Assembly: GCA_025451455.1 (NCBI GenBank)
Contig: JANWKI010000016.1
Span: forward strand, 1-52,576
Length of the DNA: 52,576 nt
Source: Ignavibacteria bacterium
Lineage (GTDB): Bacteria > Bacteroidota > Ignavibacteria > Tepidaquicellales > OLB5
Direction of reading: 5' to 3'
Positions within the stretch are counted from its first letter, which is position 1. The number at the start of each line of letters is the position of its first letter. The translations under genes and the position numbers were made by a program. A model generated the notes under the pieces. The model did no database searches and had not been told where the DNA came from. It saw only the letters and a program-made list of their open reading frames with translations. Of this stretch, positions 43,602-52,072 are shown in pieces.

Positions 43602-46600
43602 ATGAAAGCACTTAAATATTCCCTGATCGCTTTTTTGTTTTGTGCAGGAATAACTGTTTTTGCACAGGATGCTGATTTTCTTTCAAAAAATCCTGATTTA
43701 AGAAATAAGACCACAAACAATCCCGATATTTCAGATTTCCTGTTTAATGAGGTTAAACCTGACTACAAGATCATCAGTTCTAATTCATCATACATAGAAA
43801 TTGAATATTATCCTGCAGGCTCTGTAAAGAGGGAAATTGATGCCGGCCAGGAGCGTTTTTCAACCTATGAATTTCAAAGCGGTCTTGAGAAGGATGTGAT
43901 GAAGCAGGCCGGCAGCCCTGACTTGAGATATAGAAGTTTTGCCGTGATGCTTCCATCAGATAGAAATAATACTGTTCAGGTTATAGATTTTGATGTAAAG
44001 GAAGAACAAAGTGTAAATCTTGCACCGATCCCTCACATGAATGTTATTAATCCGAATATAAGGAGCTTCGAGAATATTTTCTATACTTACACAAGAGGCA
44101 GCGAGTACACAGTAAATAAATTCCAGCCTGAAAGTATTGCCTCTTTATCCAGTGTCGGCTCACTCAGAGATATTACAATTGGCAACCTTATCTTAAACCC
44201 GTACCAGTATAATCCTGTTACTAAAACGCTGAAATATTATTCCAGGATGCGTGTCAGGGTAAGTTTTGGTGAAAACCCTGTGCTGCTGAACCGTCCCAGA
44301 AGCAAACAGGAAATTGCCCTGCTCTCAAATACTGCCCTAAATTCTTTTACTGCAATGAACTGGGTTAACCCAAAGTATAAGAATATTTACAGAGATAATA
44401 ATGTTATAGAAAGTAAACTTAATACAGGTGACTGGTATAAAATAGAGATCAAGGATATCGGTGATAACAGTTCAAGTGAGGGCATTTATAAGATCACAAA
44501 AAGCTTCCTTACAGGTGCCGGCATCAATGTTTCTGGTGTTGACCCCAGGACTGTAAAGCTCTATGGAAACGGAGGCGAACTGCTGCCGGAAAGATTATAT
44601 GATCCAAGACCGTCTGATCTTGAGGAAATTGCTGTATATTTTGAAGGAGAACAGGATGGACAGTTTAATGACAATGATTTTATCCTGTTTTACGCAAGGG
44701 CAATAAATAACTGGAAGTATGATTCTGTTGCCAATTCTTTCAGGCATTACGTAAATTATTACAGCAGGTCAAACTATTACTGGATTTGCTTTGGTACTCC
44801 AAACAACGGTAAGAGGATGCAGCTTTCTCCTTCTGAAAACAGCGGCAGTGCAATAGTCCCTTCTTCTTTTTCTGAAAGAGTATTTTACGAACCGGAACAG
44901 GATAACCTGATAAGTGAAGGTAACCTGTGGCTGAGCTTTGGCAAGAGGCCGGGAGGCGCATTTGAATGGATCACAACCCTGACAGGGCTTGAAGCCAATT
45001 CAAATCTTTTGTACAGAATAAAGCTTGCATCAAGGTGCCTTGACCCCAATACAAATAATTTCCTGGTAAAAGACGATTATTCCAGCATGCCGGAATTGTT
45101 TTTCTTCATGGGTACTGTTCAGCCGGGGTTTGACAACTGGATATATACGGCCACTGATGAAGTAACGATCAATCAGTCTCAAAAAACAAACGGGGAACAG
45201 GTAAAATTAAAGTCTGTTTATTATGCATCTAATAGCGAAGCTGACGGATACCTTGACTGGTATGAAATAATTTATAAAAGAAGGTTCAACTCTGCCTCAG
45301 GTGATGTATTAAGTTTCGATTCACCGGATACAAATGCGATTGTAGAATATAATGTTTCGTCATTTTCCAATAATAACATTAAAGTATTTGATGCGACAGT
45401 CCATAATAATGTGAAGATAATACAGCCGCTGGCAGTGAGTTCTTCAAACGTAAGATTTCAAAGGACTGAAGTGAAAAACAACCTGAGCAAGTATTTTGTA
45501 GTTGGGCAAAACGGTTCCAAGATTCCAGCTCCGGGAAGCATATCTGCAAGAATACCGAACCAGGATCTGCACGGGATATCCGATGGCGCAAGTTTTGTTA
45601 TTATTACTCATAAAGATTTTATTTCAGCAGCAGATAGAATTAAGTCAAAAAGAGAACAGGGTGGCACTTCAAATCCGGATGACTTAAAGACAAGGATCAT
45701 TACTACTGATCAGATATTCAATGAATTCTCGGGTGGCGTATACGACGCGGTTGCATTAAGAGATTTTATCAAGTATGCTTTTGAGAACTGGAGTGAAAGA
45801 CCTGTTTATGTATGTTTACTGGGTGACGGTGGTTTTGATTATAAGAATATACTACAGATCCCGGGGGGGAATTTCGTACCAGCCTGGGAACTGACAAGTC
45901 CTTCAATTAACCAGGTACAGGGGCTCACAACGGATGACTATTTTGTTAATATTATAGGTGATTCTACATCACTAATTGGCAGGCCTGATCTTGCAATAGG
46001 AAGAATACCAGCGAACTTGGTTTCAGATGCTAATACATATATTGATAAAATTGACGCATATGAAAACGGTATAAACAACGGATACTGGAAAAACAGGATG
46101 ATGTTTGTTGCCGATGATTCGAAAACAACAGCTCCTGAATGCGAGTCTACTCCTCATTTGGCTCAGTGTGAATCACTTGCTGAATTATATACGCCTCCGG
46201 CAATTGATAAAATAAAGGTTTATCTTGTTAATTATCCAACAGTTATTACTCCGCAGGGCAGGAGAAAACCGCAGGTAAACTTAGATATTGCTAAGTACTG
46301 GAGCGAAGGTGTAATTAATATTCATTATACTGGCCACGGAAGCCCGGATGTTTGGGCTCATGAATATGTGCTTGAAAAGGATAATATTATGAGCCAGCTT
46401 ACAAACAGAAACCACTATCCGTTTGTTTCAATTGCCAGCTGTGATATGAGTAAATTCGATAACCCCAAAAACCAAAGCGCTGGCGAGCTTTTTATGATGT
46501 CTCCGCAAAAAGGAGCAATCGGAACAATGGCAGCCTCAAGGCCAGTATATGCTTCGAGTAATGCTGCACTGTTTTATGAGGTTTTCAATCAGCTTTACCT

Positions 46601-47795
46601 TCCAAGAGACACTTTACTTTTGCAGAAAAGGTTCGGAGGTGCAGTTTTTAATACTAAGCAGATAATTTTCAATTACTCGGATAATGATGCGAAGTTCATT
46701 TTAATGTGCGATCCGACAATCAGAACGCAGATCCCAAGATTCAAGTCTGATGTTGACAGCATCAGCGGGCTTGCAGGTGATACTATGAAAGCCCTGAGCC
46801 GGATCAAGATATACGGTTCAGTTATCCGCCCAGATTCATCATTATGGAATAATTATAACGGCAAGATCATACTGAAAATATATGATGTAGATAAGAATAT
46901 CGTGATTTATGAAGACTGCAATCCGCCCATACCTCCTCAGAATTTCAGGATAAACGGAGGTATCATTTATTCCGGAACTCAGAATATCGTGAACGGAAAA
47001 TGGGTTGTTGAATTTATTGTTCCGAAAGATATTTCATACCTTAACCAGCATGGAAGACTGATAAATTATTTTTATAATACTGAATTTGACGGCTCGGGGA
47101 TAAACAGAGATTTTATTGTGGGAGGTTTGAACCAGTCAGCTCCTGTAGATTCCATCGGTCCACGGATAAGTATGTTTCTGAATACGAGAAATTTCAGAAC
47201 GGGTGATATTGTGAACGAAAATTTTAAATTCATTGCCGATCTTTTTGATGAATCCGGGATTAACACTACGGGAACCATCGGTCATAAGATCGAAGGCGTC
47301 CTTGACGGGAATGAAAACAATAAGTATGATATGACGAATTTTTATAACAGCGATACTTCATATAAATCAGGGTCGCTGGAGTATGATTTTGCAAGTATTT
47401 CTGCAGGAAGACATACTTTGAAATTAAAAGCATGGGATACATATAACAATTCATCAGAGGCCTCGATTGAATTTGAAGTAGTTTCAGGCGGGGCATTGCA
47501 GGTATCAAATGTTTACAACTACCCGAATCCTTTCAGGGATAATACTGCTTTTACATTTCAGCACAACTATTCAGCTGATATAAATGTAAATATTAAAGTG
47601 TATACAGTTGCAGGCAGGCTTATTAAACAGATAGAGAGAAAGAATATTGCCGATAAGTTCGTTGTAATTAACTGGGACGGGAAAGATGAAGATGGCGAAA
47701 CATTGGGTAATGGTGTATATATTTATAAACTGATTGTTGAGTCTGCTGACGGTCTGACAAATACAAATACCGGCAAACTGGCTGTTTTAAAATAG
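43602..47795 (+). CDS. porU: Type IX secretion system sortase PorU-like (C25 gingipain-family peptidase)
   Basis: 1397 aa; NIHYTGHGSPDVWAHE (His) and FVSIASCDMSKFDNP (Cys); C-terminal YNYPNPFRDNTAFTF...NGVYIYKLIVES; adjacent porV-like gene. Confidence 0.9.
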   Translation: MKALKYSLIAFLFCAGITVFAQDADFLSKNPDLRNKTTNNPDISDFLFNEVKPDYKIISSNSSYIEIEYYPAGSVKREIDAGQERFSTYEFQSGLEKDVMKQAGSPDLRYRSFAVMLPSDRNNTVQVIDFDVKEEQSVNLAPIPHMNVINPNIRSFENIFYTYTRGSEYTVNKFQPESIASLSSVGSLRDITIGNLILNPYQYNPVTKTLKYYSRMRVRVSFGENPVLLNRPRSKQEIALLSNTALNSFTAMNWVNPKYKNIYRDNNVIESKLNTGDWYKIEIKDIGDNSSSEGIYKITKSFLTGAGINVSGVDPRTVKLYGNGGELLPERLYDPRPSDLEEIAVYFEGEQDGQFNDNDFILFYARAINNWKYDSVANSFRHYVNYYSRSNYYWICFGTPNNGKRMQLSPSENSGSAIVPSSFSERVFYEPEQDNLISEGNLWLSFGKRPGGAFEWITTLTGLEANSNLLYRIKLASRCLDPNTNNFLVKDDYSSMPELFFFMGTVQPGFDNWIYTATDEVTINQSQKTNGEQVKLKSVYYASNSEADGYLDWYEIIYKRRFNSASGDVLSFDSPDTNAIVEYNVSSFSNNNIKVFDATVHNNVKIIQPLAVSSSNVRFQRTEVKNNLSKYFVVGQNGSKIPAPGSISARIPNQDLHGISDGASFVIITHKDFISAADRIKSKREQGGTSNPDDLKTRIITTDQIFNEFSGGVYDAVALRDFIKYAFENWSERPVYVCLLGDGGFDYKNILQIPGGNFVPAWELTSPSINQVQGLTTDDYFVNIIGDSTSLIGRPDLAIGRIPANLVSDANTYIDKIDAYENGINNGYWKNRMMFVADDSKTTAPECESTPHLAQCESLAELYTPPAIDKIKVYLVNYPTVITPQGRRKPQVNLDIAKYWSEGVINIHYTGHGSPDVWAHEYVLEKDNIMSQLTNRNHYPFVSIASCDMSKFDNPKNQSAGELFMMSPQKGAIGTMAASRPVYASSNAALFYEVFNQLYLPRDTLLLQKRFGGAVFNTKQIIFNYSDNDAKFILMCDPTIRTQIPRFKSDVDSISGLAGDTMKALSRIKIYGSVIRPDSSLWNNYNGKIILKIYDVDKNIVIYEDCNPPIPPQNFRINGGIIYSGTQNIVNGKWVVEFIVPKDISYLNQHGRLINYFYNTEFDGSGINRDFIVGGLNQSAPVDSIGPRISMFLNTRNFRTGDIVNENFKFIADLFDESGINTTGTIGHKIEGVLDGNENNKYDMTNFYNSDTSYKSGSLEYDFASISAGRHTLKLKAWDTYNNSSEASIEFEVVSGGALQVSNVYNYPNPFRDNTAFTFQHNYSADINVNIKVYTVAGRLIKQIERKNIADKFVVINWDGKDEDGETLGNGVYIYKLIVESADGLTNTNTGKLAVLK

Positions 47796-47834: not shown

Positions 47835-48974
47835 ATGTTCAAACTTAAAATGTGCTTGCTGGCTGCTATTGTTGTGCTATCAGGAAATGTTTTTGCTCAG
47901 GGTGAGTCTGCGGTACCGTTCCTGCTTATCGGGCCTAATTCGTTGAATACCGGTATGGGTGAAATAGGAGCCGGAATGGTAAATGATGCCTCTGCAATGT
48001 TCTGGAATCCTGCCGGACTTGGCTTTCAGACAGGGACTGAAGTCTCTATTACTCACTCTCCATGGCTGCCGGGATTGGGTTTATCGGATCTTTTCTATGA
48101 CTTTCTCGCCGGAAAACATTATATCAAGAAACTTAAGGGTACAATTGGTGCAAGTATAACTTATTTGAATATCGGTAAGATCATCAGAACCGATGAGTTC
48201 GGGAATGAAATAGGAGATTACCAGGCATTTGACGGGGCTCTTGCCGTTGGATACGGAACAAAAGTTACAAAGGATCTTTCAGTGGGAATTGTTACCCGGT
48301 TTATTTACAGCAAACTTGCAGTTGACCCCGTTGCGGGCGAACAGGGAACCGGCACAGCATACGATCTGAGTTTTGATTTATCAACTCTCTGGAGGCCATT
48401 TAAAACTAAAGTAAAATTTATCAATAACAGGCTTGGTATCGGTGTGAATCTCTCAAATATCGGCCCGAAAGTTACATATGTTGATAATGCACAGGCTGAC
48501 CCCCTGCCTACAAATCTTCGCCTTGGATTTGCATATGATGTATATCAAAGTGAATACAATAACTTTACAATATCAGCAGATTTTTCCAAACTTCTTGTAA
48601 AAAGAGGGGAAAACGGAGAATCTGACCCTGTTTATAAGGGAATTTTCACATCATTTAGCGGAGGATTCGACAATGTGATGAAATCTATTCAATCATCAGT
48701 CGGGGCTGAATACTGGTATGGTAACCCTAAAGTTATCGGTTTAAGAGGAGGTTTCTTTTATGAAGATCCGGATAAAGGCAAAAGAAAATTCATTACAATG
48801 GGCGCAAGTATCAGGTACAGCTTGTATGGATTTGATTTCAGTTACATAAGCACAATAGAAGAGAATCATCCTCTTGCCAATACCCTGAGATTTACTCTTT
48901 CCGTAAATTTTGGTACTCCGGAAACAGTTAAAAAACCCGGGGAAAAGAAACCCGAAGATCAACCCAAGAAATAA
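47835..48974 (+). CDS. porV: Type IX secretion system outer membrane channel protein PorV-like
   Basis: SAVPFLLIGPNSLNTGMGEIGAGMVNDASAMFWNPAGLGF...ITHSPWLPGLGLSDLFYDFLAGKH; beta-barrel. Confidence 0.88.
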   Translation: MFKLKMCLLAAIVVLSGNVFAQGESAVPFLLIGPNSLNTGMGEIGAGMVNDASAMFWNPAGLGFQTGTEVSITHSPWLPGLGLSDLFYDFLAGKHYIKKLKGTIGASITYLNIGKIIRTDEFGNEIGDYQAFDGALAVGYGTKVTKDLSVGIVTRFIYSKLAVDPVAGEQGTGTAYDLSFDLSTLWRPFKTKVKFINNRLGIGVNLSNIGPKVTYVDNAQADPLPTNLRLGFAYDVYQSEYNNFTISADFSKLLVKRGENGESDPVYKGIFTSFSGGFDNVMKSIQSSVGAEYWYGNPKVIGLRGGFFYEDPDKGKRKFITMGASIRYSLYGFDFSYISTIEENHPLANTLRFTLSVNFGTPETVKKPGEKKPEDQPKK

Positions 48975-48979
48975 TTTAA

Positions 48980-51900
48980 ATGAAAATTTCAAGCTCGATT
49001 TTGCGGATATTAACAGTCACTGCACTGTTAATATCCGTTAATTTTAATATCAGTGCTCAGTTGATCCCGGCGAGTAAGATCAAACTAAGCCACCCCATAA
49101 ATAGTAACCCAAAACCACTTAATGAAAACGGGAATTACTACAATAATGCTTTGTTCCGCTCGCAGGTGCCGGAAACACTGAATGTTTATGCTATCAGGGT
49201 AGATTTTAAACCTGATAATAATTCTCAAACCACCGGAGACGGCAGATTTGATGTTTCCAGCAATTATCCAGATTCAGTTGATGCACCTCCCCATGACAGT
49301 TTATATTTTATTTACAAACTGGAATTCCTGAAGAATTATTATTTTAAGGCGTCAAAAGGGAGGCTCATTATCAATTATATATTGCTTCCGACCGTAAGAA
49401 ACCTTGGAAATGAAATGGAAGTGTACTCTCCGCGAAGAAACGAAAACATGCAGAGAATGGGTAATTTGTTTTTTGATGTTTGGCGTTCTGCAGACAGTAC
49501 AATAGATTTTTCAGGTATCAATACGAACAATTCTGCATTCGTAATTTTTCATGCAGGTGTTGGCAGAGATGTTGATCTTGCCTCACAGGGATTATTTGTC
49601 GGCGAGCTCGATCTTCCTTCGATCTATATGAGTAACGGAACTTTGAAATCTTTATACGGAGATACTACCCAGGGATACTATACAAATGAAGGAACAATCA
49701 TACGCAGCTCCTGCATGCTGCCTGAACAGGAATTCAGAATTATCAGTACTACATTCGGTGATGTTTACCTTGAGCTTGGATTGAACGGAATTGTGGTTGC
49801 AACTATTGGAAGCCATCTGGGGCTCCCGGATCTTTTTAATACCGAAACCGGCGGAACTGCTATCGGGCGATTTGGCTTAATGGACGGACAGGCTATTTTC
49901 AGCTATCTTGGGGTTTTCCCTCCGGAGCCATCTGCATGGGAAAAGCAGTACCTTGGATGGATCGACCCCGTTGTAATAAGCTCAAACGGCACTTATAATA
50001 CAAAAGCTGCTACACTGGATATTAACGGAAATGAATCAGTTCGTAAGATACTTATTAGCGGTAAGGAATATTTTCTTGTGGAAAACCGCAACCGCGATGC
50101 ATACGGCAACGGCCAAACCATATATTTCAGAAGAAATAATATTCTGGATTCAGTTAATTTTACACAGGATGTCGACGGGTTCAACAGCTCAGATATCTGG
50201 AAGCTTAAAGGAAGTATTGTAGATGTGGATGAACTGGACTGGAGCCTTCCCGGATTGAAAAATGATACCGCAGATTTTCAGGGCGGAATACTGGTTTGGC
50301 ATATTGATGAAAATGTAATTGATGCCAAAATTGAATCCAATACAATCAACAATGATATAGAGCATAAAGGCGTTGATGTTGAAGAAGCAAAAGGCTCTCA
50401 GGATATTGGTGTAGTTGTGCATACCCCGATAGGTGATATTATCAGCGATGGTTTCTTTGTTGATTTCTGGTATGACGGCAATCATTACAGGCCCTCAAAT
50501 ATATACCGGAATGAATTTACGCCGACAAGCTTCCCGAACTCCAAAAGCTATTCAAATACAAATTCAAGGGTTTGCATTACCGCATTTAGCCAAATTGGGC
50601 CTAACATGACTTTTAACTATCAGCAGTGCGGTAATATTACGAATATTAATACTTTCCCGAGATTAGTTGGAATAGATACTACAGGCAATGCACAGCCGAT
50701 AGGGTTTGATTATAACGGCAATGGGCTCGATGAGATGTTTGTGAACGTTAAAGACAGTCTGTACGGTTTCCGTGATAACGGTAATTCAATAAGGGTTGAT
50801 AAGCCTAATGGGTTCCTGAAAGACAGTGCAGCAGGTTTTATCGTTGGATATTATCCCAATACTGTAAACGGACAGACTAAGTTTGTAACCGGTGTATATG
50901 GCAATAAGATCAGTTTGATCAACTTTACTATTGATTCATTAACAGCGGTACCCTCAGTTATACAGTTTAATTCAAACAGTAATTTTTCAAGTCCCCAGCT
51001 GCAATTTCTGGGATCTCCTGACCAGTTAAGCTCTGGTACTGTAAGCGGGAAGATATTCAAACTTGATCTGGCTTCGCAGGGAATAACATATGATTCTGTT
51101 TCAAACAGGAAAATTATCCAGCTTGCGAAAGAAATAGTAAGTGTAAATCAGGTAATCCGTTTTATTGATGACGCAAATAAGTTTTTAGCCGAAACAGATG
51201 TAGTTTTGGCTCAACAAGTTGATATTCAAACAGAGCCTGTAATTGTTTCGGGTTCTAATTCAGTTTCTCTGGATGGCACAATAATTTCTCAGAATTTAAG
51301 TTTAACAAATGTATACTCATCTCCTGTTGCTGCTGATATTAACAAAGACGGGAACATTGAAATTGTGTTTACTGCCGATAACAAAGTATTTGCGATAAAT
51401 CAAAACGGGGTTTTATTAGATAATTTCCCGTTCACTGTACCTAATGTAAGCAGGATCTCAAGCGGCTGCTCAGTTGCAGATCTTAACGGCGACGGAATTT
51501 TTGAAGTGATATTCGGAACCGGTGACGGGCGTGTTTATGCATATGGTACCGATGGAAAAATTCTGGAAGGATTCCCGCTTACTACAGGCGGGGTAATAAA
51601 TTCGACTCCTGCAGTAATTAACACCGGTGGTAATTTCGGGCTGTTGGTATACTCTCAGGACGGATACCTGTACGGATATAAAACACCATGGGCATATGAT
51701 TCAACAAGGGTTATCTGGAGAAATTATCTCAGGGATAAGGATCACACAAACTCAAATTTGGATAGATTTTCTCCTTCAGCAAGCGGCCCATGTTTACCTA
51801 AGGAGAAGGTATATAACTGGCCTAATCCGGCATACGGTAAATCCACCAATATACGCTATTATCTAAATGGTGACGCATCAGGCATCGATATAAAGATCAT

Positions 51901-52072
51901 GGACCTTTCCGGTGAGCTTGTTACGACGCTTAAGGGTACGACCAATAAGGGCTTTGATAACGAAGTGCCATGGGATATCACCAACGTTCAAAGCGGTATA
52001 TATATAGCAGTCTTTGAAATGACAGGCGGCTGCAGTGAAACTGCATCCATCAAAATTGCTGTCGTAAAATAG
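48980..52072 (+). CDS. M6-peptidase-domain-like secreted protein with FG-GAP-like repeats and T9SS tail; HExxH absent
   Basis: FVIFHAGVGRDVD, TIGSHLGLPDLFNTETGGTAIGRFGLMDGQ, WEKQYLGWIDP, GGILVWHIDENVIDAKIESNTINNDIEHKGVDVEEAKG; DINKDGNIEIVF, ADLNGDGIFEVIF; YNWPNPAYGKSTNIRYYL...SGIYIAVFEMTG. Confidence 0.88.
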   Translation: MKISSSILRILTVTALLISVNFNISAQLIPASKIKLSHPINSNPKPLNENGNYYNNALFRSQVPETLNVYAIRVDFKPDNNSQTTGDGRFDVSSNYPDSVDAPPHDSLYFIYKLEFLKNYYFKASKGRLIINYILLPTVRNLGNEMEVYSPRRNENMQRMGNLFFDVWRSADSTIDFSGINTNNSAFVIFHAGVGRDVDLASQGLFVGELDLPSIYMSNGTLKSLYGDTTQGYYTNEGTIIRSSCMLPEQEFRIISTTFGDVYLELGLNGIVVATIGSHLGLPDLFNTETGGTAIGRFGLMDGQAIFSYLGVFPPEPSAWEKQYLGWIDPVVISSNGTYNTKAATLDINGNESVRKILISGKEYFLVENRNRDAYGNGQTIYFRRNNILDSVNFTQDVDGFNSSDIWKLKGSIVDVDELDWSLPGLKNDTADFQGGILVWHIDENVIDAKIESNTINNDIEHKGVDVEEAKGSQDIGVVVHTPIGDIISDGFFVDFWYDGNHYRPSNIYRNEFTPTSFPNSKSYSNTNSRVCITAFSQIGPNMTFNYQQCGNITNINTFPRLVGIDTTGNAQPIGFDYNGNGLDEMFVNVKDSLYGFRDNGNSIRVDKPNGFLKDSAAGFIVGYYPNTVNGQTKFVTGVYGNKISLINFTIDSLTAVPSVIQFNSNSNFSSPQLQFLGSPDQLSSGTVSGKIFKLDLASQGITYDSVSNRKIIQLAKEIVSVNQVIRFIDDANKFLAETDVVLAQQVDIQTEPVIVSGSNSVSLDGTIISQNLSLTNVYSSPVAADINKDGNIEIVFTADNKVFAINQNGVLLDNFPFTVPNVSRISSGCSVADLNGDGIFEVIFGTGDGRVYAYGTDGKILEGFPLTTGGVINSTPAVINTGGNFGLLVYSQDGYLYGYKTPWAYDSTRVIWRNYLRDKDHTNSNLDRFSPSASGPCLPKEKVYNWPNPAYGKSTNIRYYLNGDASGIDIKIMDLSGELVTTLKGTTNKGFDNEVPWDITNVQSGIYIAVFEMTGGCSETASIKIAVVK

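Follow-up and report, generated by a model that had tools for sequence, protein, structure and literature searches.

The locus raises the question of what a protein with the landmarks of an M6 metalloprotease, its zinc site replaced, does directly beside the sortase genes of a type IX secretion system (T9SS). The protein, M6i (T9SS-dependent M6-like inactivated metalloprotease), is encoded in the window, a 52,576-nucleotide stretch of Ignavibacteria DNA (contig JANWKI010000016.1, assembly GCA_025451455.1), by a 1030-residue open reading frame at 48980..52072 on the forward strand, and scores 769.8 bits against the NCBIfam model NF052323 (cut-off 600). It lies downstream of the genes for the PorU sortase (43602..47795, forward; NF033707, 902.3 bits, cut-off 420) and PorV (47835..48974, forward; NF033710, 271.8 bits, cut-off 250), so the placement directly after porU-porV given in the first-pass annotation stands on two matches above curated cut-offs. 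The porV stop lies at 48974 and the ATG start codon of M6i at 48980, a gap of 5 nucleotides. PorU retains, as read from its sequence, the catalytic-type motifs GHG (aa 911) and SC (aa 946-947). In 45 of 45 loci (L001-L045) porV directly adjoins M6i, and at L098, where the M6i-porV pair is inverted relative to porU, M6i is still with porV. Two tandem porU copies lie a few kb upstream of M6i on the same contig in G045:C104, G054:C140 and G147:C4.

M6i opens with a probable Sec signal peptide, MKISSSILRILTVTALLISVNFNISAQ (48980..49060; read by eye, with a helix at residues 4-24 in the model), followed by an M6-like pseudopeptidase domain (aa 51-550; 49130..50629), a beta-propeller region with FG-GAP-like repeats (approximately aa 560-901; 50656..51682; Pfam FG-GAP_3, 31.1 bits, and a beta-rich propeller in the model) and a T9SS type A C-terminal sorting domain (CTD; aa 947-1030; 51818..52069), all on the forward strand. 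The tail is assigned to type A by Pfam Por_Secre_tail at 30.4 bits (cut-off 27), while TIGR04183 reaches 22.9 bits, just below its cut-off of 23; the TIGR04183 domain is present in 16 of the 17 aligned M6i homologs, and the seventeenth ends at a contig end. The intact frame and T9SS tail noted earlier are confirmed, marginally so for TIGR04183. The AlphaFold model of the full-length protein has a mean pLDDT of 60 and a pTM of 0.37, and its PDB matches are generic propellers. Judged by its sequence, M6i is probably exported by the T9SS and located at the cell surface.

Membership in the M6 family had been read from short landmarks (FVIFHAGVG, GLPDLFNTE, IGRFGLMDG, WEKQYLGW, ILVWHIDENVID and IEHKGVDVEEA), all of which are found in the translation, and it is borne out by profile and model comparison. 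Aligned by hhalign against 12 M6 proteins from the same class that carry HExGH (set A2), M6i gives a probability of 100 and E=2.5e-39 over aa 51-550; the reference set itself matches InhA 4yu5 at 3e-44. A low-confidence model of the domain (mean pLDDT 61, pTM 0.70; used for this match and not for site geometry) has InhA2 (4yu6) as its sole significant PDB match, at E=8.5e-7. The cut-offs of the standard M6 models are not reached: Pfam PF05547 gives no match to M6i, a genome-wide Pfam M6 search was uninformative in that its control gave no match either, and TIGR03296 matches M6i only by its C-terminal part, at 60.3 bits, below its cut-off of 110.8. A PDB search using the M6i profile returned no match. 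Because active M6 proteins and 4yu6 are matched while the site residues are replaced, M6i is a remote M6 homolog without the M6 site. By profile it has its fold in common with InhA1 and InhA2 (4yu5 and 4yu6), but both zinc-binding His and the catalytic Glu are replaced and the domain is followed by a propeller and a T9SS tail; about 50 of its residues (aa 379-427, ...DVDELDWSLPG...) have no counterpart in active M6 proteins. Several active M6 proteins of the class (L102, L103, L104, L105 and L122) have one extra zinc-motif residue (HEMGHSVFGLPD), a feature known from igalysins (PMC12237041).

The degenerate site lies at 49799..49831 (forward), where the DNA reads gcaactattggaagccatctggggctcccggat and the translation ATIGSHLGLPD (aa 274-284), exactly as claimed, with ATIGS (aa 274-278) standing where HExGH of the HExGHxxGLPD motif belongs. 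In the hhalign alignment A274, T275 and S278 fall under His, Glu and His, and D284, the retained Asp of GLPD, under the motif Asp. The HExxHxxGxxD zinc and catalytic motif of active M6 peptidases is absent from M6i, and HExxH occurs nowhere in its open reading frame. Across the phylum, HExxH is likewise absent at the site in 83 of 83 collected homologs; an intact motif in orthologs, named at the outset as possible counter-evidence, was found in none. The typical replacement is [AS][STN][IF][GA]S[HYF]LGLPD, and by column the 83 sequences have A/S/G/N, then S/T/N/Q (A and M once each), I/F/V/L, G/A (F once) and S/N/T, followed mostly by an aromatic residue or His and by L, G, L, P and D, of which P and D are invariant. 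At none of the three lost positions does any of these sequences carry His, Glu or Cys, and the single HExxH elsewhere in the homologs (L054, aa 139) is an unaligned chance motif. The same replacement is present in 13 Ignavibacteria MAGs at 67-80% identity.

In the closest genome pairs, omega was 0.02-0.046 for the M6 domain, 0.07-0.15 for the propeller and 0.04-0.065 for PorU, values that are approximate at a dS of about 1 or more. The order, with the M6 domain below both the propeller and PorU, holds in every usable pair, pairs with the window being unusable through saturated dS. Within M6i, constraint is strongest in the dead M6 domain. That M6i is a maintained pseudoenzyme and not a decaying gene, as first proposed, is strongly supported by the loss in 83 of 83 homologs, the conserved replacement, the low omega and the curators' own name, "inactivated"; the protein is probably without catalytic activity. 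The most divergent M6i (L099:6737-9976, reverse strand) has SSFFNFLEVPDLF and FGLMDP instead of GLPDLF and FGLMDG, and the motif may be relaxing in that lineage.

A pseudoenzyme of this type is already catalogued and hence no new kind. M6i matches NF052323 (T9SSA_dep_M6i) over its full length (aa 41-1030, model positions 18-1043 of 1043), the model is matched by all 17 members of the M6i alignment (A1), and its 600-bit cut-off is exceeded in 136 of 197 class genomes and 146 of 396 phylum genomes. Inactivation and dependence on the T9SS are both part of the model's name, and M6i is of the same kind; the model carries no function, and a literature search of partial coverage (M6 with T9SS, T9SS pseudoprotease, PorU2/M6i) returned no functional study of the family.

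In many loci the gene directly after M6i encodes a protein of about 1025-1130 residues, here called the companion. Companion genes, with a gluzincin domain, a TolB-like propeller and a barrel-like C-terminus, lie at L016:11781-14855 and L015:11004-14150 and, on the reverse strand, at L097:3409-6639 and L099:3350-6691. The N-terminus is a gluzincin (PF13485) with HE[FYL][TVLI]H in 67 of 67 sequences and W[FL][AS]EG in 66 of 67, and the middle is a TolB-like PD40 propeller (PF07676). By this intact motif the companion is an active-looking metalloprotease. The C-terminus reads as Omp85-type and barrel-like (GGLxGMKGYPFYxIGGNE...), with a weak BamA match (E=0.085) and no barrel match in a PDB profile search, and is a probable outer-membrane barrel. 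No NCBIfam equivalog scored above its cut-off for the companion. The HEFTH-bearing frame downstream of M6i in many loci was considered as a tandem active M6 paralog and rejected, being a gluzincin with a TolB-like propeller that is unrelated to M6. Like M6i, the companion combines a peptidase domain, a propeller and a membrane- or export-related C-terminus; unlike M6i, it has an active-looking HE[FYL][TVLI]H...W[FL][AS]EG site in an unrelated peptidase fold and no T9SS tail. The N-terminal domains of Omp85 proteins are usually periplasmic, those of type Vd being an exception. Should the companion end in a barrel of the Omp85 type, its N-terminal domains may lie in the periplasm, across the membrane from exported M6i, and the side on which its peptidase lies therefore bears on direct contact between the two.

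The companion is the strongest association of M6i, rather than the core T9SS. Among 396 phylum genomes, for each of which the 2-6 best candidates were scored and on which the absences rest, 151 have both genes, 244 have neither, one has M6i only and none has the companion only; in the class sample the corresponding counts are 85, 33, 1 and 0. The sole M6i-only genome is that of the window, which is 64% complete, and five of five other sampled congeners have the companion. On an rpoB tree of 76 genomes (quick FastTree, two antisense-frame rows removed before counting), M6i presence requires a minimum of five changes; the genomes with M6i and those with the companion form one identical set on this tree, so each change applies to both genes. 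One genome (G094, family f11, 67% complete) has both genes while its relatives have neither; as this may reflect a binning error, it was kept out of the count of independent events. Where positions were compared (77 phylum genomes), the two genes lie within 8 kb of each other in 60 and not in 17, the latter belonging to families f1, f2, f31, f35, f46 and f58 and to one f10 genome, possibly through a contig break; linkage has thus been lost in several families with both genes retained. The companion adjoins M6i in most lineages. The window's order has one other family, f2, and there all seven genomes read carry the companion immediately next to sprA/sov (TIGR04189, 915 and 829 bits); in f1, f31, f46 and f58 it adjoins neither M6i nor sprA/sov. 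The companion could not be seen from the window because it is unlinked in this lineage and missing from the incomplete genome. If whole clades lost many genes together, this pattern could also arise with no direct interaction between the two proteins. The co-inheritance of M6i with an uncharacterised gluzincin-propeller-barrel protein is new here, and the literature searched, with partial coverage, held no description of the companion or its synteny.

The suggestion of a structural or accessory role in secretion holds in part. M6i is beside porV wherever the flank was read, and it is absent wherever PorU is absent; in the f33 lineage PorU is gone along with M6i and the companion. A PorU-bearing T9SS, however, persists without M6i (in f5, f7, f14, f15, f19, f30, f36 and others), and four lineages (f7/f14/f15; f30; f36; most of the f29-f45 group) keep PorU without M6i or the companion. 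A core component would accompany every PorU-type T9SS, and M6i does not; because PorU persists in lineages without the pair, M6i is neither a universal sortase subunit nor a core secretion part. In M6i-free loci of the same class (L080-L090; f5, f7, f14, f15, f19 and f24), porU-porV adjacency is mostly retained, with no M6i after it. PorU in these genomes is only about 29-32% identical to that of the window, which suggests that the M6i-free genomes with divergent PorU form a second T9SS lineage in the class.

We put at about 0.5 the probability that M6i and the gluzincin companion together form a T9SS accessory module restricted to certain lineages, with M6i as its pseudoprotease subunit at the surface. 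This reading is drawn from the loss of the site in 83 of 83 homologs, the constraint, the porV synteny, the CTD, the co-inheritance, the sprA adjacency and the intact companion motif. M6i would descend from an InhA-type M6 metalloprotease, have lost catalysis, and leave the cell through the type IX system by means of its own CTD to serve as a binding module on the cell surface. The M6 cleft, intact and strongly conserved, now centres on a fixed A/S-S/T/N-I/F-G/A-S; it may hold a partner protein or chain that it does not cleave, and the propeller may offer a second interaction surface. M6i would then act as one unit with the T9SS-linked, outer-membrane-type gluzincin (HExxH...EG, TolB-like propeller and probable barrel). 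Most simply, the two would be a protease pair acting on cargo as it leaves the SprA-PorV translocon, with M6i as the member that does not cut; the physical partnership and the cargo handling are presumed. The chances are about even that M6i and its companion are the dead and active halves of a protease module, hitherto undescribed, which works for the type IX translocon in the non-Bacteroidia lineages of the phylum and whose two genes were gained or lost together on at least five occasions.

In the likeliest of the other roles M6i would resemble PorZ and belong, as PorZ does, to the attachment complex of PorU and PorV, as a surface-retained sortase helper not specially linked to the gluzincin. 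PorZ itself carries two propellers but lacks a peptidase domain. It belongs to the 440-kDa PorU:PorV:PorQ:PorZ complex of Porphyromonas gingivalis (PMC5562754), its structure has been described (PMC5121618), and the propeller and CTD of M6i, a candidate surface component of a T9SS organism that directly adjoins porV everywhere read, recall it. M6i nevertheless differs in bearing an M6-like domain, and a PorZ-type gene exists separately in the window genome: the PorZ-type N-terminal propeller PF21544 scores 33.6 bits at G000:C79:9305-9775 (L079), in an open frame of about 786 residues, so M6i as a PorZ replacement was set aside. As PorU does without M6i in the four lineages named above and the co-inheritance with the gluzincin is left unexplained, we regard this role as unlikely. 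Less likely still is that M6i is ordinary surface cargo, an adhesin or substrate-binding protein that has no part in secretion and is encoded with porU-porV by coincidence. Its CTD is of the cargo type, and HExGH-bearing M6 proteins with C-terminal tails look cargo-like elsewhere in the class, but cargo genes are usually scattered and fast-evolving, whereas M6i is single-copy, fixed in its porV synteny and more constrained than the sortase, and the companion adjoins sprA or porV-M6i and not nutrient-use genes. It is highly improbable that M6i remains an enzyme through another metal site or mechanism: the cleft region and the GLPD Asp are invariant, this Asp being the third-ligand position in HExxHxxGxxD zincins (PMC3890501), and a rearranged site is compatible with the weak domain model, but the residues at the lost positions and the want of any HExxH beyond the chance motif in L054 speak against it. 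That ATIGS reflects a recent mutation, a sequencing error or a decaying gene in the window genome has nothing in its favour but the incomplete assembly and is ruled out by the conservation in all 83 homologs, the 13 MAGs, the intact 1030-residue frame and the low omega.

One further member of a catalogued pseudoenzyme family changes little in itself. What changes is that the formerly blank function of M6i is now testable, tied as it is over about 150 genomes to one specific active-looking metalloprotease. The tie survives several losses of linkage, M6i is under stronger constraint than the neighbouring sortase, and the companion has as its neighbour either M6i or sprA, the gene for the T9SS translocon. 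If M6i and the companion do act together as an accessory module, the T9SS beyond the Bacteroidia would have a proteolytic accessory module that is missing in the Porphyromonas and Flavobacterium models.
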